From: Chloroflexota bacterium
GTDB taxonomy: Bacteria > Chloroflexota > Limnocylindria > QHBO01
Direction of reading: 5' to 3'
DNA length: 64,000 nt
Assembly (NCBI GenBank): GCA_040902225.1
Contig: JBBDXT010000007.1
Span: 382,346 to 446,345, forward strand
In this document: piece by piece, positions 1 through 18,605 of the stretch
Layout: every line of letters starts with the position of its first letter
Numbering within the stretch: position 1 is the first letter of the stretch
The notes under the pieces: model-generated
What the model was told of the DNA's origin: nothing
Databases searched by the model: none
What the model saw: the letters and a program-made list of their open reading frames with translations, nothing else
Made by a program: the position numbers and the translations under genes

Positions 1-2651
1 GATAGCTGCTCGGCGCGCGCGGGATCTCCGGTCAGCCATAGCAGCTTCATCGAGAGGCTGTGGTACCACTGCGCTCGCGCGGCCGGCCGCTCGATCTTCT
101 CCAGCATCGGCAGCGAGGGTTCCAGGGCGGCCAGCGCCCCTTCCGGATCGTCCTCCATCATGTACAGGTCGCTGAGGGTGTCTGCGACCACCGTCATCAG
201 GTTTGGATCGCCCAGCCGCTCGGCGATGCGCTCCGCCTCGTGCGCAGCATCCAGCCGCGGCTGCATCGGCCCAGAGACCTCTTCCACCAGCCGCCGCCGG
301 TTCAGGATCATTGCGGCATCGGCAGCCAGGAGCCAGGCGCGCTCACGCTCATCCGTCGCCGCCTCCAGGCCCTCGCGGATGAGTCCCTGGATGACGTCGA
401 AGTCCGGCTCCTTGACGAATGCCCCGCCGCGGTGTGCGGCCATGCCTGCCGCGTGACGGGCGAGAGCGGCTACGCGGCTCCGATCCGCCGGGTCCTTTCG
501 CGCGATCTCGAGCGCGGACATGGATGCGACGAGCATCGCGTCGCCGTGGAATGCCGTTTCATGATCCCGCGCGATTTGCTCGAGCGCATCGAGACGCTCC
601 GTGTCGCTGGTGGCCAGCTCCAGTGCCTGCTCGTGCAGCTCCACGGCGCGCTCGACTGCGAACCGATGCCGGGCCGCGCGGCCGGCCGCAAGGAGCGCTG
701 CCAGCGCGTGCCGGCGTACAACCTCTCGCCCATCCGCATCGTCCATCCAAGCCAGGTCGGCCCCGTCGCCACGGATCGCCGCCCAGTAGTGAGAGGCGAT
801 CAGCTCGGCGAACTCATCGGTGCGGTCGCTGACCAGCTCGGCGATCCACTCGGCGACGGCAGCGTGGGCTCGGGCGCGCCTGGCCTTGGGCAGGGTGCCG
901 TATGCGACGTCACGGGTCAGCGCGTGCTTGAACAGGTACTCGGTCTGCCCGGCGAGGGTAGTGGTGGGTCGAACCAGGATCAGCCCCTTTCGTTCGAGCC
1001 CCCCCAGTGACGACTCGAGGTCCGTGCCTCCGACCGCGCCCTCCAGCGCGGCTGCCCAGAAGATGCGGCCCACGACGGCAGCCTCCTGCAGCACTCGTCG
1101 CTCCTCCGGCTGAAGCGCGTCGATCCGGGCGCCCAGCAGCGCCTGCACGCTGTCCGGGATCTTCACTTCACCGATGGTCTGGGTCGCGCGCCACCGCTCG
1201 CCGTCCCGTTCCAGAGCTCCCTCGTCGATCAGCCGCTGCAGGATCTCCTCCACGAAGAACGGATTGCCATCGGCCTTGGCGACGATCTCGGCTTGGAGCC
1301 CATCAGGCAGCTCCGCCACCGCCAGCAGGCGGTCGACGAGGTCGTTGCTCTGGTTGTCGGTCAGCGGGCGAAGCGAGATCGCAACCGCGTCCTGGCCGCC
1401 GGGTCCGAACCCCGGATGCTGGTCGGCGAACTCCGGTCGCGCGGTGGCCACGATCAGGAGCGGCCCTTCGGTACGCCGCGCGATCTGGGCCAGCATCTCG
1501 ACCGCCGGCTCGCCCGCCCAGTGCAGGTCTTCGATGACCCAGATCGCCGGGCCGGCGGCGGCATAGGCGGTCGCGAAGCGCGGCCAGGCACGCGCCAGGT
1601 CCTCCGCGCTCGCCGGGCCGGCGGCCGCCTCGGGCGTTTCGTCGAGTCGAATTCCCACCGTCGTGGCCAATGCCGCGGTCGTCATCTGTGCATCCTCGGG
1701 TGCGAGCCCCAGCGGCTCCAGGATCTCGGCCACCCCGCTCCGCAGCCGGTCCTTCACGACCTCGCTCGTCTCGTCGAGACCGATCTCGCAGGCGCCGCGC
1801 AGGATCTCGCCCAGCGCCCAGTAGGTGATGCCGTGCCCGGCGGAGAGGCATCGGCCGCGCAGGACCCGAATCCCGGAGTCGGAACCCTGCGCCGAGGCGA
1901 CGAACTCATTGGTGAGGCGGCTCTTCCCGATGCCGGCCAGTCCGTAGATCACGACCAGGCGAGGCTTTCCGCTCTCGATCGTCTCGTCCAGCAGGCCGGT
2001 GAGGGTGACGTGCTCGCGGTCGCGGCCGATCATGGGCGCAGAGAGTCCGCGCATCCCGCGCGGAGTTGCCTCCGCGAGCTCCTCGACCAGTCCGTAGACG
2101 CGCACGGCATCGGCCTTGCCCTTGAGCTCGAGCATCCTCGGCTCGCCGAAGCGGAACGCGCGCTGGGTCGCATTGAAGGTCCGCTCGCCGACCAGGATCT
2201 CACCGGGATCGGCCGCCGCCTCCAGCCGCTGCGCGGTGTTCACGGGGTCTCCAGCCACGAATCCCTGATCGGGTGCCGGACCGCCGGGGGCGATCACCTC
2301 ACCCGTGTTGACGCCGATCCTGACTCCCAGCGTGACCTGGTGCTGGCGCTCGAAATCGGCGTTCAGCTCCTCGAGTCGCTGACGCATCTCGAGTGCCGCA
2401 CGCAGCGCTCGCTCGGCATCGTCCTCGTGGACGACCGGGATTCCAAAGACCGCCATGACCGCATCGCCGATGTACTTCTCGACGGTGCCGCCCCACGACT
2501 CGATGATCGACGCCATGGCGGCGAAGTAAACGCCCAGCAGCGCTCGCAATCGTTCCGGATCGAGCTGCTCGCCGAGCGCCGTTGAGCCGATCACGTCGGC
2601 GAACAGGATGGTGACGACCTTGCGTTCCTCGCCGACGCCCCTGTCAGCCAT
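1..2651 (-). CDS. Class III adenylate/guanylate cyclase fused to AAA ATPase and TPR-like region (C-terminus beyond window)
   Basis: The reading frame is open from the ATG at 2651 to the window edge, so the C-terminus is missing. Residues about 10-190 form a class III nucleotide cyclase domain. Both metal-binding aspartates are visible (FADVIGST, D19; EKYIGDAVMAVFG, D63), as is the transition-state NTAQRLE motif, so the cyclase looks competent. A STAND/AAA ATPase follows with Walker A GLAGIGKS, then Ala/Leu/Glu-rich helical TPR-like sequence runs to the edge. Such proteins are thought to couple cyclic-nucleotide synthesis to ligand sensing; the signal is unknown. A -10 box (TAGACT) ends 6 nt before the ATG, so the mRNA is probably leaderless. 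The start lies inside a 44-bp sequence repeated at 5006-5049. Confidence 0.88.
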   Translation of the reverse strand, partial: MADRGVGEERKVVTILFADVIGSTALGEQLDPERLRALLGVYFAAMASIIESWGGTVEKYIGDAVMAVFGIPVVHEDDAERALRAALEMRQRLEELNADFERQHQVTLGVRIGVNTGEVIAPGGPAPDQGFVAGDPVNTAQRLEAAADPGEILVGERTFNATQRAFRFGEPRMLELKGKADAVRVYGLVEELAEATPRGMRGLSAPMIGRDREHVTLTGLLDETIESGKPRLVVIYGLAGIGKSRLTNEFVASAQGSDSGIRVLRGRCLSAGHGITYWALGEILRGACEIGLDETSEVVKDRLRSGVAEILEPLGLAPEDAQMTTAALATTVGIRLDETPEAAAGPASAEDLARAWPRFATAYAAAGPAIWVIEDLHWAGEPAVEMLAQIARRTEGPLLIVATARPEFADQHPGFGPGGQDAVAISLRPLTDNQSNDLVDRLLAVAELPDGLQAEIVAKADGNPFFVEEILQRLIDEGALERDGERWRATQTIGEVKIPDSVQALLGARIDALQPEERRVLQEAAVVGRIFWAAALEGAVGGTDLESSLGGLERKGLILVRPTTTLAGQTEYLFKHALTRDVAYGTLPKARRARAHAAVAEWIAELVSDRTDEFAELIASHYWAAIRGDGADLAWMDDADGREVVRRHALAALLAAGRAARHRFAVERAVELHEQALELATSDTERLDALEQIARDHETAFHGDAMLVASMSALEIARKDPADRSRVAALARHAAGMAAHRGGAFVKEPDFDVIQGLIREGLEAATDERERAWLLAADAAMILNRRRLVEEVSGPMQPRLDAAHEAERIAERLGDPNLMTVVADTLSDLYMMEDDPEGALAALEPSLPMLEKIERPAARAQWYHSLSMKLLWLTGDPARAEQL

Positions 2652-2674
2652 GGACGGAGTCTAGGGCGTCGCGG
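2631..2674. repeat. 44-bp direct repeat, copy 1 (cyclase promoter/start module)
   Basis: This copy matches 5006-5049 at 43 of 44 positions; the difference is A at 2654 versus G at 5029. Read on the minus strand it contains the TAGACT -10 box, the ATG and the first seven codons of the cyclase gene. The match stops abruptly on both sides. The two copies flank the ECF sigma/kelch gene pair. Confidence 0.9.
2652..2663 (-). promoter_or_regulatory. Leaderless promoter of the cyclase gene
   Basis: On the minus strand a TAGACT -10 element (2663-2658) is separated from the ATG by six bases. Transcription would begin at or next to the start codon. No Shine-Dalgarno sequence is present. Confidence 0.55.
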
Positions 2675-3002
2675 AAGCGCTGGGTACAGGCGAGGCCTGC
2701 GGATCCCCGACCCTGCACGGGTGCATTTACACCGAGCGTACGTAACAACCAACAAGGCTTGAAGCGAAGACCCTTCTCTGCCGTGGCTTACGCCAGGTGC
2801 ACGTGGCGACCAAGAACGGCCCAATTTGCGTCCCAGCAGGCCCCCGTCGACGGGGAACTTGGCCGTTATGCACGGTGGATGTAAATGGAAGTTCGTATGG
2901 AGTCACCAAGCCAGGTGCAACGCCAGATGGAACCAATTTGCGGCGGCGGCGCCCATACGAAGCGAAGGCGGTCCGCTTGGTCGCCAGCCTAGGGTGAGCA
3001 GC
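2664..3002. promoter_or_regulatory. Divergent control region between cyclase and ECF sigma genes
   Basis: This is about 340 bp without a convincing gene. It holds an imperfect inverted pair: CATTTACACCGAGCGTACG at about 2721 and its related complement around 2867-2890. It also contains a GGGAACTT sequence near 2852 that resembles an ECF -35 element. Promoters for the sigma gene, possibly autoregulated, should lie here, but I cannot define one with certainty. An AGGGTG ribosome-binding sequence precedes the ATG at 3003. Confidence 0.4.
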
Positions 3003-3563
3003 ATGCAGAGCGATCTGGTGGTACGCGCATCAGCCGGCGACCACGCCGCGTTCTCCCAGCTGGCAGGCGCGTCGATCGGTGGGCTCTACCGCATCGCGCA
3101 TCTGATCCTGCGGGATGGCGACCTTGCGAACGACGCTGTCCAGAACGCGCTGATCGCTGCCTGGCAGGACATCCGAGGGCTTCGCGACCCCAATCGCTTC
3201 GATGCCTGGCTGCACCGACTGACGGTGCGTGCCTGCTACAAGGTGGCACGCACACAGCGGCATCGCGCCTCCAGAGAGGTTGAGCTGATGCCGATGCACG
3301 AGTTGCCATCGGGGGACGATGACCAGCGCCTGCTGGCGGTTCGCGATCAGCTCGAGCGCGGCTTCCGGCGCCTCTCGGCGGAGGAGCGATCCGTGCTCGT
3401 GCTGCATTACTACCTCGACCTGCCGCTGGCGGAGGCTGCGGACATCATGGGTATTCCACTCGGCACCATGAAGTCTCGACTTAACCGTGCAACACACGCA
3501 CTTCGGGCTGCGCTCGATGCTCAGGAACGGGCATCGGTGGTCTCGAATGGAGGCATCGCATGA
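3003..3563 (+). CDS. ECF-family RNA polymerase sigma factor
   Basis: This 186-residue protein has the usual length of an ECF sigma factor. Region 2 is at about residues 10-80 (LYRIAHLILRDGDLANDAVQ, then AWQDIRGLRDPNRFDAWLHR). Region 4 is at about 115-170, with the helix-turn-helix core LPLAEAADIMGIPLGTMKSR. I chose the ATG at 3003 because AGGGTG lies six bases upstream and homologous sequence begins there; a longer in-frame extension from 2826 looks non-coding. The stop overlaps the next start (ATGA), so it is translationally coupled to the membrane kelch protein, which probably controls it. Confidence 0.9.
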   Translation: MQSDLVVRASAGDHAAFSQLAGASIGGLYRIAHLILRDGDLANDAVQNALIAAWQDIRGLRDPNRFDAWLHRLTVRACYKVARTQRHRASREVELMPMHELPSGDDDQRLLAVRDQLERGFRRLSAEERSVLVLHYYLDLPLAEAADIMGIPLGTMKSRLNRATHALRAALDAQERASVVSNGGIA

Positions 3564-4897
3564 CCAGTGACCGCCAGTTCGAGGCGCTGCTTCGGTCCTG
3601 GTTCGATGAGTCCGCGCCGTCTGGCAATCCACGTGACCTGCTGGAATCGGTCGTGACCGCGACGGGGGGCACCCGCCCCCGTGCTGCATGGCTGGTGCGC
3701 CTGCGTGGTGAGCCGATGCCCGAGACTGACCGCTCCCGCCTGAACCGGTCCGTGCCTCTCGCTATCGCCGCGACAGGCCTAGTTGTCGCGGTGCTGGTCG
3801 CCATCGGCCTCGTGCTGCGATCCACCAATGTCGGCCCTCCGCCGGTGCCCACCGGCACGCCGCAGCCCACGTCGCATGCCGCTGCGTGGACCGCCGCGGC
3901 CAGCATGCTCACCCAGCACTACGGCCACACGGCAACGCTCCTCGCGGATGGGAGGGTCCTCGTGGCGGGCGGCCTCATCGGGCAGACTGGTATCGCCTCC
4001 GCTGAGCTGTACGACCCGAGGAACGGGACATGGACCGCGACGAGGGACATGCTCACGCCGCGCTTCTTCGCCACCGCCACGCTGTTGCGCAACGGCAGGG
4101 TGCTGGTGTCGGCCGGGACCTATGACCAGACCTCCGCTGAGCTGTACGACCCCAGCACCGGCACGTGGACCGCCACCGGAAGCATGGCGACGCCACGCCA
4201 GCTTCACACCGCCACGCTGCTTTCCGATGGCAGGGTGCTTGTGGTGGGGGGAACCGTCGGTGACTACAGCGGCGTCACGGCGACCGCCGAGCTATACGAC
4301 CCGACCTCCGGGCTATGGAACGCCACGGGAAGCATGGCGACTGACCGTTGGCTGCACACAGCCACACTGCTGCCCGATGGCACGGTGCTGGTGGCTGGAG
4401 GTCGTACCTACAACCCGAATGCGAGCACCCCGGACCTCCGCAGCGTGGACAGCGCGGAACTGTACGACCCGCGCACGGGATCATGGACCGAAACCACGAG
4501 CATGGCCGTTCCGCGCTCGGCCCACGACGCGACGCCGTTGGCCGATGGCACGGTGCTCGTGACAGGCACCGACAACACCGCCACGACGCTTCCGGTAGAG
4601 CTGTACGACCCGCGCAGCGGATCCTGGACCCTAGTCGGGAGCGCCAATTTCGCTGGATACCCCGACAGTGCCACGCTGCTGGATGACGGCACCGTGCTGC
4701 TCGTTTCCTTCGGCCATGAGGGGGCCTGGGTCTACTACCCGAGCAGCGGATCCTGGACTGCCACCGCCACCGCGAGCATCGCAGTCGGACTCGCCGCCAC
4801 AGCCACGTTGTTGGCGGATGGCACAGTGCTCGTGGCGGGCGGCGACCCGCCTGGCGACGGGGTCTCCGCCTCGCTGTACCACCCGGGCAGCCCCTAG
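3560..4897 (+). CDS. Single-pass membrane protein with kelch-type beta-propeller; candidate anti-sigma/sensor
   Basis: This 445-residue protein has three parts: a cytoplasmic segment of about 65 residues, one transmembrane helix (about residues 66-86), and an exported domain of roughly seven kelch-like repeats. Each repeat shows LLxDGRVLVAGG, then AELYDPxxGxW and a small-residue turn. The gene overlaps the ECF sigma gene by 4 bp. ECF genes are commonly followed by a membrane anti-sigma factor, so the N-terminal segment may bind the sigma factor while the propeller senses an extracytoplasmic ligand or polysaccharide. No zinc-binding HxxxCxxC anti-sigma motif is visible, so the anti-sigma role is inference. 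The kelch assignment is secure. Confidence 0.8.
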   Translation: MTSDRQFEALLRSWFDESAPSGNPRDLLESVVTATGGTRPRAAWLVRLRGEPMPETDRSRLNRSVPLAIAATGLVVAVLVAIGLVLRSTNVGPPPVPTGTPQPTSHAAAWTAAASMLTQHYGHTATLLADGRVLVAGGLIGQTGIASAELYDPRNGTWTATRDMLTPRFFATATLLRNGRVLVSAGTYDQTSAELYDPSTGTWTATGSMATPRQLHTATLLSDGRVLVVGGTVGDYSGVTATAELYDPTSGLWNATGSMATDRWLHTATLLPDGTVLVAGGRTYNPNASTPDLRSVDSAELYDPRTGSWTETTSMAVPRSAHDATPLADGTVLVTGTDNTATTLPVELYDPRSGSWTLVGSANFAGYPDSATLLDDGTVLLVSFGHEGAWVYYPSSGSWTATATASIAVGLAATATLLADGTVLVAGGDPPGDGVSASLYHPGSP

Positions 4898-4951
4898 CCA
4901 GGAGGCATTTCCCTGTACGCCGCGGCGGCTGACGATAGGTGACGAGCTCCG

Positions 4952-5026
4952 TCATCCACCACGGAGGCCCGCTATGGCGCTGGCGAAGGGCTCGGGGCGA
5001 CGGAGGCCGACGCCCCTGTCAGCCAT
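4952..5026 (-). CDS. 24-residue micro-ORF in displaced copy of the cyclase start
   Basis: The second copy of the 44-bp repeat carries the same TAGACT-N6-ATG arrangement. Its ATG at 5026 opens a short frame that begins MADRGVG, as in the cyclase, then diverges and stops at 4952. It is probably a by-product of the duplication rather than a functional peptide. It could produce a leaderless transcript antisense to the end of the kelch gene. Confidence 0.25.
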   Translation of the reverse strand: MADRGVGLRRPEPFASAIAGLRGG

Positions 5027-5049
5027 GGGCGGAGTCTAGGGCGTCGCGG
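5006..5049. repeat. 44-bp direct repeat, copy 2
   Basis: This near-perfect copy of 2631-2674 lies 109 bp beyond the kelch stop codon. It carries an intact minus-strand -10 box and the first seven cyclase codons, but no cyclase gene follows. It marks the right boundary of the ECF/kelch segment. Confidence 0.9.
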
Positions 5050-5050
5050 G

Positions 5051-5457
5051 TCAGGGCGGCGATGGTTCCGAGGGTGGCTCGCGTCCGCCATCCAGCAGCG
5101 TGCGGTTACCCAGAGGCTCTGCCAGGAGGACCTTCACTGGCGTGCCGGGTCCGAGCGGACAGGTCTGGGCGCCGCTCAGGGGTCGAACTCGCATGGTGAC
5201 GGTGACCGTCGCAGCTTCAGAGTTGACGACCGGGGGCGCCATGCGGCCGATGATCAGCGTTCCGCCATTGCAGGCTCTCTCCAGACCAGGATGTTCAGCT
5301 CGGTCGTCCCGGGCGGCGGTGCGGCGAAGGCTGGATCGAGCGCCCAGGTAGCTGGGCCATATCCAGAGGGCGGTGGTGTGGTCGCTGGGTTTGGGACCAG
5401 AAGCGAGCATCCGCTGAGAAGCACGCCCAGAACGACGAGCAGCGCACGAAGAGCCAC
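5051..5457 (-). pseudogene. Small lipoprotein gene interrupted by a single-base frameshift
   Basis: From the ATG at 5457 the frame encodes a lipoprotein signal peptide (LLVVLGVLLSGC lipobox, Cys17) and continues to ELNILVW, then stops at 5254. Another frame continues directly with RACNGGTLIIGRMAPPVV and on to LLAEPLGNRTLLDGG, ending at 5051. Adding one G near 5282-5290 (TGGAGAG to TGGGAGAG on the minus strand) joins them into one protein of about 135 residues. This is either a real inactivating deletion or a sequence error. The function is unknown; the protein would be a lipid-anchored envelope protein. It lies 2 bp downstream of the 104-residue membrane-protein gene. Confidence 0.7.
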
Positions 5458-5459
5458 CG

Positions 5460-5774
5460 CTACGGCGAGGGGCTGGCCACAGCCGACGCCGAGGGAGATG
5501 CCCCAGCGAACTCGCTTGCCGCCGCCGACGCAGATGCGCTCCCCGAGGCGCTCGGCTCAGCCGAGAAGCTCGGGAGCGGGGCCGGGGTGGGCGACGGGAA
5601 GAGGGTCGTCGGCACATTCGCGAAGGAGAGGGCGAAGATCAGGACGAAGATGACGAGCACGATCAGCACCCACGGGCGCGCAAGGGCGTCGGTTCGGGGC
5701 GGCAGAGAGCCCCGGTAGCCGGGAGCCGGCGTCTCCTCGCCGCGCGTCGGTCCGCCGCGCCTCTGGTCGGTCAT
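5460..5774 (-). CDS. Small single-pass membrane protein with Ser/Ala/Pro-rich tail
   Basis: This 104-residue protein has a charged N-terminus (MTDQRRGGPTRGEE), one transmembrane helix (WVLIVLVIFVLIFALSF, about residues 36-53) and a low-complexity Ser/Ala/Pro tail. No domain is recognisable. I placed the start at the ATG at 5774 because the upstream extension is composition-biased and overlaps the transporter gene. It sits between the MFS fusion gene and the broken lipoprotein gene on the same strand. Confidence 0.6.
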   Translation of the reverse strand: MTDQRRGGPTRGEETPAPGYRGSLPPRTDALARPWVLIVLVIFVLIFALSFANVPTTLFPSPTPAPLPSFSAEPSASGSASASAAASEFAGASPSASAVASPSP

Positions 5775-5829: not shown

Positions 5830-7758
5830 CTATCGGGCGCCGCGCATGGCGGGGACCAGCAACCCACCCAGCCCGGCCACGGCAATCAGGCCGCCGCCGA
5901 GCATCAGCACCGTCGCCGCCCCGACCACCCCGGCCAGGTAGCCAGCCGCCCCCATCGAGATCGCCATCGCCCCAAAGGTGAGCGCCTGCCGGCTCGAGAC
6001 GACACGGCCGAAGAGCCGCTGCGGAGTCAGCTCCTGGAAGAGGGTGATGGTCGGCACCAGGTACAGCATGTTCGCGACGCCGATGGCGAAGAAGAGCGCG
6101 ATCGCCACCTGCGTGCTGGTGGTCAACCCGGCCCCGACCATCGCCAATCCCAGGCCGATGAAGCCTGCGATCGTCATCGGCCCCTTGGGGGCATGCGGAG
6201 CGAACCAGCCGATCGCCACGCCGCCGACGACGCTGCCCAGCCCCAGCGACGCCATCAGCCAGCCGTAGTTCTCCGGGAAGGGGAGGAAGCCCTGGTCCAG
6301 CACGTCCTTGGCGTAGATCAGGCTGCAGACGATCTCGGCGCCGAAGGCGAGCTGCGCCACCGTGCTCACCACCGTGTTGGCCAGCAGCTCTGCCTTGTGG
6401 GTCAGGAAGCGCCAGCCCTCGGCCATCTCGCGCCAGATGGCGCGGGCGCTGAACGGCTCGGTGGGCAGCTTCTCGGGCGGCACCGCCATGCCCCAGATCA
6501 GGATGGCGCTCACCAGGTAGGTCGCCGAGTCGAGCACGAACGCCGCACCGATCAGTCCGGCCAGCCCGGCCACTATGGCGGCCGCCACCGGGTAGCCGAG
6601 CAGGTCGGCGAGCGTCTCGTTGATGCTCGATGCGGAGTTGGCGGTGACAAGCTGCTCGTCGTCGACGATGAGCGGCACGATCGCCGTCTTGGCCGGCCGG
6701 AAGAGCAGCCCCACCGTGGCGACCGCTAGGGCGATCAGGTAGACGAGCGCGATGTGCACGTTGATCAGGAGGGGCACGAGCAGGACGAGCCCGGCGCGCA
6801 CCAGGTCGCAGGCAATCATGGTCGTGCGGCGGTCCCAACGGTCGACCAGGGCGCCGGCGAGCGGGCCGAGGAACACGTTCGGCACAGCGGTGGCCGCGAA
6901 CACGACCCCCACGTCCAGCGGCGTCCCTTGCTGGAGGACGAGCACGCCGATGGCGACCTGGTGCACGCGGTCGCCGAAGAAGCTGACCAGCTGCCCCATC
7001 CATAGCAGGCTGAAGTTGCGGTTGCGGACGAGGGCGAGGTACGGGGACTGCGCTCGCTCTCTCGGGATCGCGACCACAGCGCCGCCGGCACCCGCGGCGG
7101 CAAGGGCGGGCATGCTTCCGACCGACTGTGCCTGCCCACCAGGGAAGGGCGACGCGTTGGCAAACGGGTCGCCGGGTCGCAGCCCCAACGTATAGGCAGC
7201 CCGCAGCGGTGCGTTGGGGCGGGTCATGGAGTAGACGATCGCCCAGAAGATGCCCACCGCCAGCAGCGTGTCACCGATGCTGACCACGTCGCGAATGACC
7301 GGCAGCGGGATCGGCACCACGTCGCCGAAGATCCCGCCCTGCCGCACGAAGTCGGCCACGCTGTTCGTGGTCAGCAGGAAATGGAACGGATCGTTGGCCA
7401 GCGCATCGGGGGTGAAGCCGGCGGCGTAGAAGGCTGCCGCCCAGATCGGCATCTGGCCTCCGTTGAGGACGACCGCCAGCGTATTGAGGGCAATCCCGAC
7501 CGCGGCGATCTGGAGCCCCGGCACCCGCCAGTTGCCCCACAGCCAGACGAAGATCAGCCCGTAGCTGGCGATGAAGGCCGCACCCAGCGGCAGATCCACG
7601 CCGATGTCGCCCTGGCGCAGCAGCCCGGCGCCGAAGCGCATGGCCAGCGCCAGGCCCAGGACCCAGATCCAGCGCAGCCGCAGATCGGCGAGACGGGGGA
7701 GCCCTCCGCCGGCCAGCGCGCCGACTACCAGGGCCAGGACGATGGTGCTAAGAAACAT
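5830..7758 (-). CDS. DUF5317 domain fused to MFS_3-type major facilitator transporter
   Basis: This 642-residue membrane protein starts at the ATG at 7758, overlapping the HD-GYP gene by 11 bp. Residues about 1-190 match DUF5317-type membrane domains (GGQMPIWAAAF and several hydrophobic helices). From about residue 230 an MFS transporter follows: NFSLLWMGQLVSFFGDRVHQ opens helix 1, and LAGALVDRWDRRTTM is the loop 2-3 signature. The MFS half resembles the EntS/macrolide-efflux group, so export of a small molecule is likely, but the substrate is unknown. The two domains usually occur as separate proteins. Translational coupling to the c-di-GMP enzyme suggests related control. Confidence 0.8.
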   Translation of the reverse strand: MFLSTIVLALVVGALAGGGLPRLADLRLRWIWVLGLALAMRFGAGLLRQGDIGVDLPLGAAFIASYGLIFVWLWGNWRVPGLQIAAVGIALNTLAVVLNGGQMPIWAAAFYAAGFTPDALANDPFHFLLTTNSVADFVRQGGIFGDVVPIPLPVIRDVVSIGDTLLAVGIFWAIVYSMTRPNAPLRAAYTLGLRPGDPFANASPFPGGQAQSVGSMPALAAAGAGGAVVAIPRERAQSPYLALVRNRNFSLLWMGQLVSFFGDRVHQVAIGVLVLQQGTPLDVGVVFAATAVPNVFLGPLAGALVDRWDRRTTMIACDLVRAGLVLLVPLLINVHIALVYLIALAVATVGLLFRPAKTAIVPLIVDDEQLVTANSASSINETLADLLGYPVAAAIVAGLAGLIGAAFVLDSATYLVSAILIWGMAVPPEKLPTEPFSARAIWREMAEGWRFLTHKAELLANTVVSTVAQLAFGAEIVCSLIYAKDVLDQGFLPFPENYGWLMASLGLGSVVGGVAIGWFAPHAPKGPMTIAGFIGLGLAMVGAGLTTSTQVAIALFFAIGVANMLYLVPTITLFQELTPQRLFGRVVSSRQALTFGAMAISMGAAGYLAGVVGAATVLMLGGGLIAVAGLGGLLVPAMRGAR

Positions 7759-16673: not shown

Positions 16674-18605
16674 CTAGGCTTCCGGTGGTTGAGGAGCCTC
16701 GTCGAGCGTCGTTCCGCCCGCCGAGAGGCTGATCAGGGCGACCGGCACGGCCACGACCGCGATGGCGAGGTAGGCCAGGAAGACGCTCCAGTTCTCGAGG
16801 TAGATCGCCAGTCCGACGATCACGGCGGTCGGGAGCAGGACGGCAGCGATCATCCAGGCAATCGCCAGGGCGCTCCATTCCACGGCCGGGCGACGCCCGA
16901 AGAAGGCCGCCTCATCGGCACCGATCACGATGTCCCAGCCCTTCATCGTCAGCCACCACAGCACCAGGCCGATGATGGCGACCAACCCAGCCGCCACGAA
17001 GCCGTTGACGACGGCGGGCCAGCCGGCGAACCAGTCGGGGAGTGGCAGGGAGTCGACCCAGCCCAGGATGGCGGCGCCCCATTCGGGGAGGTGATTGCGT
17101 ATGCCCCACAGCGTCGTGGCCAGGGCGACCAGGAAGAGGACGCGGCCGGCCAGCAGCATCGTCACCCGGCGTCCGCGGACCTTCGCCGCCTCCCGCAACT
17201 GCGGTGGGATTCCGTCCGTGATCCCAATGGGGCTGGGCGGGGCGAGGCCTGCCGCGGCGAAGGCGACCGCGCTGACGAACACGGTTCGGTTGCTCCAGTA
17301 GATGGCGTGGTCGAGCAGCGTGCTCCCCACGTTGCGGATCTTGTACGACTCGACCCCCTTCGGCAGCTTGTCCAGCAGCTGCCCGTTCGGCGCCGGGTCG
17401 GCCGATGCCCACAGGTCCAGCCAGCGGAAGCCGGGCATCGCCTTCTGCACGGCCTTGATCTCGCCCTGGATCTCCTCTTCGCCGGCGCGGTCATTGCGTC
17501 TCGCCATGCGGACGAGGAGCACCTGCACCACCAGCACGCCCAGCAGGGCACCCCCGAACCAGGCCAGCGGGGTCTGGGCGTGGGAGACGATCTCGCCCAG
17601 GTCGAACTTGCTGGTGATGACCTCGGCCAGGACGCCCGCACCGTTGTAGCCGGCCACCACCAGCAGGACCGTGGTCAGCGTCGCCAGCCCGAAGAAGGTC
17701 AGCTTTCGGCGCCCGGGGGCCGTCTGCACGAGGTAGAGGGACTTCAGCTTGCGGAATGCCTGCCCAAAGCTGAGGAAGAGATCGATCCGAGCTCGCTTGT
17801 CGGGGTCCCGCTCGGCGTTGCGCCGGATGGCGTGCCAGGACACCGCACTGCCCTGTGAGTGGGCGAGGACGATGACCCGGTCGCACAGTCGATCCATCTC
17901 GACGATGTCGGTGCGCACCTGCTCGGCCATGGCCGCGAATCGCACCGGGCTGCGCACCAAAATCAGCAGGTCGCCGAAGCTGCCCGTCAGGTTCTTGGCG
18001 ATCGCGCGGACGAGGTCCGTGAGGGCAGGGATCGGGATCAGGCTGAAGATCAGCAGCGCCAGGAGGACGGGCGTCACGGCCGATGCCACGATCGCCGCCA
18101 CGAGGGTGATGAAGAATGCCGCGATGGCGTTGAGGACACGCCGCAGCAGGCCCGGGTTCGGCGGAGCGGCGCTTCTGAACCGGTTCTCGAGGCCCGCCCG
18201 CTGGGAGGCGATCAGCCACGGGCCGGCGGAGAAGGCCCAGGTCACCAGCTCGAAAAAGGTCGCCTGCCGGAAGGTGGTGGCCCACCACGATTCGGCGAGC
18301 CGCCACTTCTGCTTGGCAGGCGGCGTTTTGGTCTCATCGCCGATGGTGACCGAGACGTGCGCCTGGCCGCCGATCGGGTGGTCCGGCTCTCCGCCCAGCA
18401 CCTGGCCACCCGAGCGGAGCGTCGCGTCCCGGATCTTGAAGACGGACTTCTCCACCGGCGCCAGCCACTTGCGCAGCCACTCGGTGAGCGCGTCGCCCAT
18501 ATCGGTGACACTGTCGCCCTGGACCTGCTCGCCCATGCCATGGACGAAGAGGATGCCGACGGCGTATGGCTTCTTGGGGGTGCCATTTGCCTGCTCGGGA
18601 TCCAT
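16674..18605 (-). CDS. Polytopic membrane protein with alpha/beta-hydrolase-like motifs
   Basis: This 643-residue protein begins with a hydrolase-like strand and oxyanion motif (ILFVHGMGEQ, residues 18-27). It carries a nucleophile-elbow-like VLAHSQGSAVSW with S250. These soluble elements are interrupted by a helical pair at about 155-195. Further transmembrane segments follow at about 300-370 and 440-630. An esterase or lipase facing the cytoplasm is plausible, but I cannot assign the catalytic acid and histidine or a substrate. A small frame-preserving Asp/Glu-rich tail ends the protein. It is divergent from the M28 peptidase. Confidence 0.6.
   Translation of the reverse strand: MDPEQANGTPKKPYAVGILFVHGMGEQVQGDSVTDMGDALTEWLRKWLAPVEKSVFKIRDATLRSGGQVLGGEPDHPIGGQAHVSVTIGDETKTPPAKQKWRLAESWWATTFRQATFFELVTWAFSAGPWLIASQRAGLENRFRSAAPPNPGLLRRVLNAIAAFFITLVAAIVASAVTPVLLALLIFSLIPIPALTDLVRAIAKNLTGSFGDLLILVRSPVRFAAMAEQVRTDIVEMDRLCDRVIVLAHSQGSAVSWHAIRRNAERDPDKRARIDLFLSFGQAFRKLKSLYLVQTAPGRRKLTFFGLATLTTVLLVVAGYNGAGVLAEVITSKFDLGEIVSHAQTPLAWFGGALLGVLVVQVLLVRMARRNDRAGEEEIQGEIKAVQKAMPGFRWLDLWASADPAPNGQLLDKLPKGVESYKIRNVGSTLLDHAIYWSNRTVFVSAVAFAAAGLAPPSPIGITDGIPPQLREAAKVRGRRVTMLLAGRVLFLVALATTLWGIRNHLPEWGAAILGWVDSLPLPDWFAGWPAVVNGFVAAGLVAIIGLVLWWLTMKGWDIVIGADEAAFFGRRPAVEWSALAIAWMIAAVLLPTAVIVGLAIYLENWSVFLAYLAIAVVAVPVALISLSAGGTTLDEAPQPPEA

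Follow-up and report, generated by a model that had tools for sequence, protein, structure and literature searches.

The window examined here, a 64-kb stretch (64,000 nucleotides) of a Chloroflexota bacterium genome, raises the question of how an ECF sigma gene and an adjoining kelch gene came to lie between two copies of the start of a cyclase gene. A gapless 44-bp direct repeat with sharp ends was identified at 2631-2674 and 5006-5049, the two copies agreeing at 43 of 44 bases and each holding, on the minus strand, TAGACT-N6-ATG plus seven cyclase codons (MADRGVG), exactly as a sequence-only reading had described. By a base-composition estimate for 64 kb, about 1.6e-13 such pairs would be expected by chance, and no exact repeat in the window is longer than the 23 bp contained in this pair. 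A search of the whole genome to which the window belongs (G000; 2.28 Mb, seven contigs, 99% complete) detected the full 44-mer at just these two sites, so that a dispersed repeat was ruled out. The features of the locus are the following, G002 being a genome of the same genus.

1-2651, minus strand: cyclase gene with an adenylate/guanylate cyclase domain and AAA_16 (Pfam Guanylate_cyc 2.6e-23, AAA_16 1e-22), running off the left window edge
2631-2674, minus strand: repeat copy 1, with the -10 box TAGACT, N6, ATG and the first cyclase codons; keeps the G002 base at the lone copy-to-copy mismatch
2675-5005, no strand: inserted segment of 2,331 bp, missing from the G002 empty site
2675-2918, no strand: left end of the insert, unique sequence of lower GC (60%) without a convincing match in relatives
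2929-2958, plus strand: putative autoregulated ECF promoter GGAACC-N16-GCCCATAC, conserved in front of the sigma gene of relatives
3003-3563, plus strand: ECF sigma factor (Sigma70_r2 5.9e-11, Sigma70_r4_2 1.1e-12)
3560-4897, plus strand: membrane protein with a kelch propeller (Kelch_6 1.1e-33), overlapping the sigma stop
4969-5004, plus strand: right-hand end of the insert, similar to the ancestral flank (G002 L041, around 7415-7444)
5006-5049, minus strand: repeat copy 2, a displaced promoter/start remnant joined to the ancestral flank
5050-5086, no strand: ancestral upstream flank of the cyclase, adjoining the single copy in G002; 5006-5086 is 88% identical there

The cyclase start codon (ATG, 2651-2649) lies inside copy 1, and the cyclase ORF continues from this left copy only, while the right copy opens a dead-end frame of 24 codons (MADRGVGLRRPEPFASAIAGLRGG, then stop) that ends near 4952 and stops short of the 3′-end of the kelch gene at 4897. 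Leaderless promoters have been defined by a TANNNT motif some 12 bp ahead of the start codon (PMC3160421), and TAGACT-N6-ATG matches this definition in both copies and in G002. Copy 1 is, as judged from this motif, the promoter and start retained by the cyclase gene, putatively leaderless, whose copy 2 most probably persists as an inert remnant. The sequence-only reading had raised the possibility that copy 2 drives antisense transcription into the kelch 3′-end.

An empty site was found in G002 (locus G002:C30), where the cyclase gene is 85% identical at the DNA level and 91% at its 5′-end. There, a single 44-bp copy is followed directly by the counterpart of 5050-5086, and beyond it lie genes for a small membrane protein and an MFS transporter (87%). 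Since the sequence that follows copy 2 follows the single copy in G002, the inserted segment corresponds to 2675-5005; the insertion, the 44-bp duplication and the empty site are all plain in this comparison. The sequence-only reading had predicted an empty site with a single 44-bp copy at the cyclase gene, and had held that the cassette was inserted beside that gene with the far copy displaced; both were borne out by the congener, and the search yielded neither a two-copy locus devoid of the sigma and kelch genes nor any dispersal of the 44-mer. A further difference was seen next to the site, i.e. 315 bp of the flank (window 5087-5401, part of a lipoprotein-like frame) are missing at the G002 empty site, and a 66% similar copy of most of this stretch sits elsewhere in G002 (C89).

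The syntenic locus was found in G002 only, so the polarity was determined without an outgroup and, for that reason, rests on shared differences and on the affinity of the cassette. No orthologous locus was found in G001 or G003, both of which are incomplete genomes and unusable as outgroups, and the other cyclase matches were apparent paralogues with different N-termini. The two copies have bases in common that differ from G002, and the duplication is therefore most simply younger than the split of G000 and G002. Conversely, the cassette and its two 44-mers could be ancestral to the genus and have been lost from G002 by recombination between the repeats, a deletion that would leave an identical single-copy site and that meets no contradiction from an outgroup with the locus, none having been found. 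We consider this history very unlikely, given that the copies share their differences from G002 and differ mutually by one base, and that the similarity pattern of the cassette conflicts with the relationships within the genus.

As to the cargo, Pfam places both sigma regions 2 and 4 in the 3003-3563 protein, and in the 3560-4897 protein a short conserved segment at the N-terminus and a kelch propeller at the C-terminus accompany a single predicted transmembrane stretch. The gene overlap, the conserved N-terminus and the membrane segment suggest that the kelch protein is probably the anti-sigma factor or sensor of the pair; no Pfam anti-sigma match was obtained in it. The GGAACC-N16-GCCCATAC element, with one match in the window versus 0 expected, also precedes the sigma gene in G009, G001, G002 and G017, which suggests a promoter function. 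Only G009 has the kelch domain too; in G001, G002 and G017 the shared N-terminus is followed by different C-terminal domains.

The sigma protein shares 88% identity with its counterpart in G009, a member of another genus, 84% with that in G001 and 73% with that in the congener G002. The other G009 proteins compared are mostly below 75% identical, and the G002 proteins near the locus about 86-98%. In G009, G001 and G002 the sigma relatives each reside in a different neighbourhood. Because the sigma protein is closer to G009 than to the congener, the sigma-kelch cassette was, on sequence grounds, most likely acquired horizontally, and its foreign affinity is well supported. Homology to other genomes starts around the 2929-2958 element and ends with the two genes. 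For the outer ends of the insert, 61 relatives yielded short, weak matches only, and the left end beyond the element had no convincing match among 177 genomes of the class.

Matters were different at the right end. Its 36 bp at 4969-5004 align with the ancestral flank of G002 at 28 of 30 bases plus a 6-nt gap, which is the best non-self match of this piece in the 1.79 Mb of sequence compared (P=2e-4 versus random genome pieces, an optimistic value as the match had been noticed before testing). The match ends one base before copy 2, with the flank-like sequence abutting it, and this end of the insert is probably flank-derived. If so, the joint runs from flank to cyclase start, an arrangement not expected from a clean insertion of foreign DNA that duplicated its target.

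As the best explanation, at a probability of roughly 0.5, we propose that a fragment of the order 44 bp of cyclase start, cassette, flank piece was integrated at the cyclase start. The DNA fragment would have carried the 44 bp of cyclase start, then the cassette and then a short piece of flank; its ends would have been joined illegitimately end to end, forming the joint 5005|5006 from flank to cyclase start; and the circularised fragment would have entered by a single crossover, the 44-bp repeats being the homology used, or alternatively the 44 bp would have been duplicated by an equivalent unequal exchange. Entry of such a circularised fragment before the single crossover may have been by transformation or another uptake route. 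This explanation is favoured by the single-copy site in G002, the bases shared by both copies, the foreign affinity of the sigma protein, the flank match at the right end and the similar anatomy of E. coli integrants (PMC3240628), and also by the Ku and ComEC genes of G000 and by a second insert of this genome, bounded by a duplicated gene 5′-end. What counts against it is that 44 bp is short for a RecA-dependent crossover and also below the lengths of published duplications, that the flank match spans 36 bp, and that the polarity lacks an outgroup. No donor allele, in which cyclase start, cassette and flank tail would follow one another, turned up in the sequences compared.

The second insert concerns another ECF sigma gene (C4:194924-195472), whose 5′-end and upstream region are duplicated around 1,504 bp; the duplication is mismatch-free over 180+43 bp, one of the copies having a 26-bp gap. 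Its copies (G000:C4:195307-197280) are the following.

L123 7308-7555: one copy of the duplicated sigma 5′-end
L123 9060-9281: the other copy

At this place G002 has one copy of the 5′-end, the rest of the sigma gene being gone, and a flank-derived end was sought at the duplicated locus with none found. In about 0.9 Mb of G000 surveyed, these were the only two cases recognised of a protein-gene 5′-end duplicated around an insert, and the remaining repeat pairs comprised tRNA half-sites, paralogue clusters, kelch repeats and short repeats. Three other repeats were recorded. A perfect 28-bp direct repeat occurs 6.2 kb apart (L122 7995-8022 and 14217-14244; G000:C4:164994 and 171216), with one copy some 270 bp ahead of an ECF sigma gene; it may be a shared promoter or operator. 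In G006, a 36-bp hairpin-like sequence stands on both sides of an ECF sigma gene (L134 6682-6717 and 8404-8439). Several near-identical gene segments at G000:C2:200-212 kb (L180 and following) encode (T)NVLYYGDNLDILRRYLPDA, resembling a DNA methyltransferase motif.

The second insert also bears on a direct illegitimate insertion through a staggered break or template switching, for which the 44 bp would be a long target-site duplication and the likeness of the right end to the flank a coincidence. Its duplicated 5′-end differs in length (about 222 bp), arguing for non-specific ends; moreover, both 44-bp copies match one host allele, non-coding bases included, and Ku is encoded in the genome. 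Such an insertion is possible, yet we regard it as rather unlikely, as it does not predict a right end matching the ancestral flank and 44 bp is long for a staggered break.

Whether the insert is itself a mobile element was examined through its genes, its ends and its repeats. No transposase was present among the insert genes, and no recombinase gene either, the insert containing the sigma and kelch genes only; integrases are encoded elsewhere in the genome, and elements moved in trans would lack a recombinase of their own. The repeat list of the window contained no terminal inverted repeat joining the ends of the insert. A transposon or insertion sequence was ruled out by the lack of a transposase and of terminal inverted repeats, together with a 44-bp duplication that is not of the short, fixed type. 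Comparison with the cassette of other genomes revealed no conserved ends in common, and no recombination site shared with other occupied sites emerged, the 44-mer being nowhere else in the genome and the arm of the tRNA cassettes described below being absent from the window.

Fragments of the 5′-half of tRNA-Arg(TCG) separate small cargo segments in arrays of three genomes of the family, i.e. G000 and two relatives.

G000:C4:346-358 kb: tRNA-Arg(TCG) array, fragments at L148 6201-6300, 9147-9252 and 14851-14956, tRNA at 18194-18269
L127: tRNA-Arg(TCG) array, fragments at 505-610, 3878-3948 and 5443-5518
L046: tRNA-Arg(TCG) array, fragments at 1526-1628, 3330-3428 and 6059-6174

Most of these fragments have a conserved upstream arm, and the displaced ones have a downstream arm (CGATGCGCTGTGGC..GAGCGTG) that is absent from the intact tRNA. 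A tyrosine recombinase is encoded in one array segment of G000, and one segment of G017 contains a sigma/anti-sigma pair and no recombinase. The arrays look like tRNA-targeted cassette accretion on the 5′ side. At another tRNA gene of G000, a 12-kb segment lies between 45-bp copies of the tRNA-Leu(TAG) 5′-half (L153 5511-5555 and 17549-17593; G000:C4:445511-457593). A tyrosine recombinase is encoded next to the intact tRNA, and the cargo includes kelch and beta-propeller genes.

The occurrence of recombinase-less sigma/anti-sigma cargo in the tRNA half-site arrays made a site-specific reading of the 44-mer worth testing, namely that it is an attachment site where a tyrosine recombinase acting in trans placed a recombinase-less cassette, in the manner of the tRNA 5′-half arrays of the same bacterial family. 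In line with this, the genome has tyrosine recombinases and tRNA half-site repeats of 41-45 bp, the G017 pair is lodged between such repeats, and the 44-mer has 7-bp inverted arms, which 5% of random 44-mers have as well. Set against these, the arm motif of the tRNA cassettes is missing from the window, the 44-mer resembles the tRNA-Arg half-site weakly (P about 0.02) and almost equally well in either orientation, no second locus in the genome uses the 44-mer, and both copies match the lineage-specific allele of the host. Neither the exact 44-mer core nor the tRNA half-site had a match in viral contigs, and the 44-mer was rejected as a site-specific att on the weak half-site likeness, the absent arm motif and this lack of a viral-contig match; we accordingly consider site-specific integration improbable. 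The broader proposal, that the 44-mer is an attachment site at the 5′-end of a protein gene where a tyrosine recombinase in trans moves small recombinase-less sigma/sensor cassettes and regenerates the promoter and start of the target, appears more doubtful still; if true, it would extend the tRNA 5′-half cassette system of this bacterial family to protein genes. The sequence-only reading had left the choice between a mobile-cassette footprint and a duplication. A duplication fits better, the footprint being disfavoured by the lack of a recombinase, of visible terminal inverted repeats, of conserved ends and of a known cassette arm, and by the flank-like right joint.

Most likely, then, a horizontally acquired pair was added by ordinary recombination, a further instance of a known process, and the locus does not look like a pointer to a new kind of system or a new mobile element. 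It offers a clean natural case of a complete sigma/sensor module added beside an unbroken gene, and a sister species shows the empty site; the cyclase gene was left unbroken because its promoter and start were duplicated in the process. Modules with interchangeable sensor domains could spread in this way among Chloroflexota without a dedicated mobile element.

In its cargo, the insert resembles the known combination of an ECF sigma factor with a membrane-bound anti-sigma partner, having overlapping genes behind a conserved GGAACC-type element, and is distinguished by an extracytoplasmic domain that is a kelch propeller here and is exchanged for other domains in relatives. With islands and cassettes at tRNA genes (Islander, PMC4383910; tycheposon-type) it has in common one regenerated and one displaced target copy, whereas the target here is a protein-gene start and there is neither a recombinase nor conserved site arms. 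Small variable segments of bacterial genomes have been attributed mainly to illegitimate recombination, 10-18% of them being flanked by direct repeats (PMC2884548); a small insertion without mobile-element genes is common to both, whereas the repeat here is long and contains a promoter and start codon, and the target gene is intact. When homology-facilitated illegitimate recombination was assayed in E. coli, part of the homologous locus was duplicated rather than deleted in 56 of 60 integrants, the duplications measuring 109-950 bp in the 14 integrants sequenced (PMC3240628). The authors' explanation was a single crossover of a circular molecule from which some of the homology was missing, probably after linearisation, degradation and re-circularisation (PMC3240628). 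The present locus differs from that assay in its 44 bp as against 109-950 bp, and in being a natural locus whose mechanism is inferred from sequence, and shares with it foreign DNA set between direct repeats of a portion of the target, one side of which would be an illegitimate joint here as well (PMC3240628).
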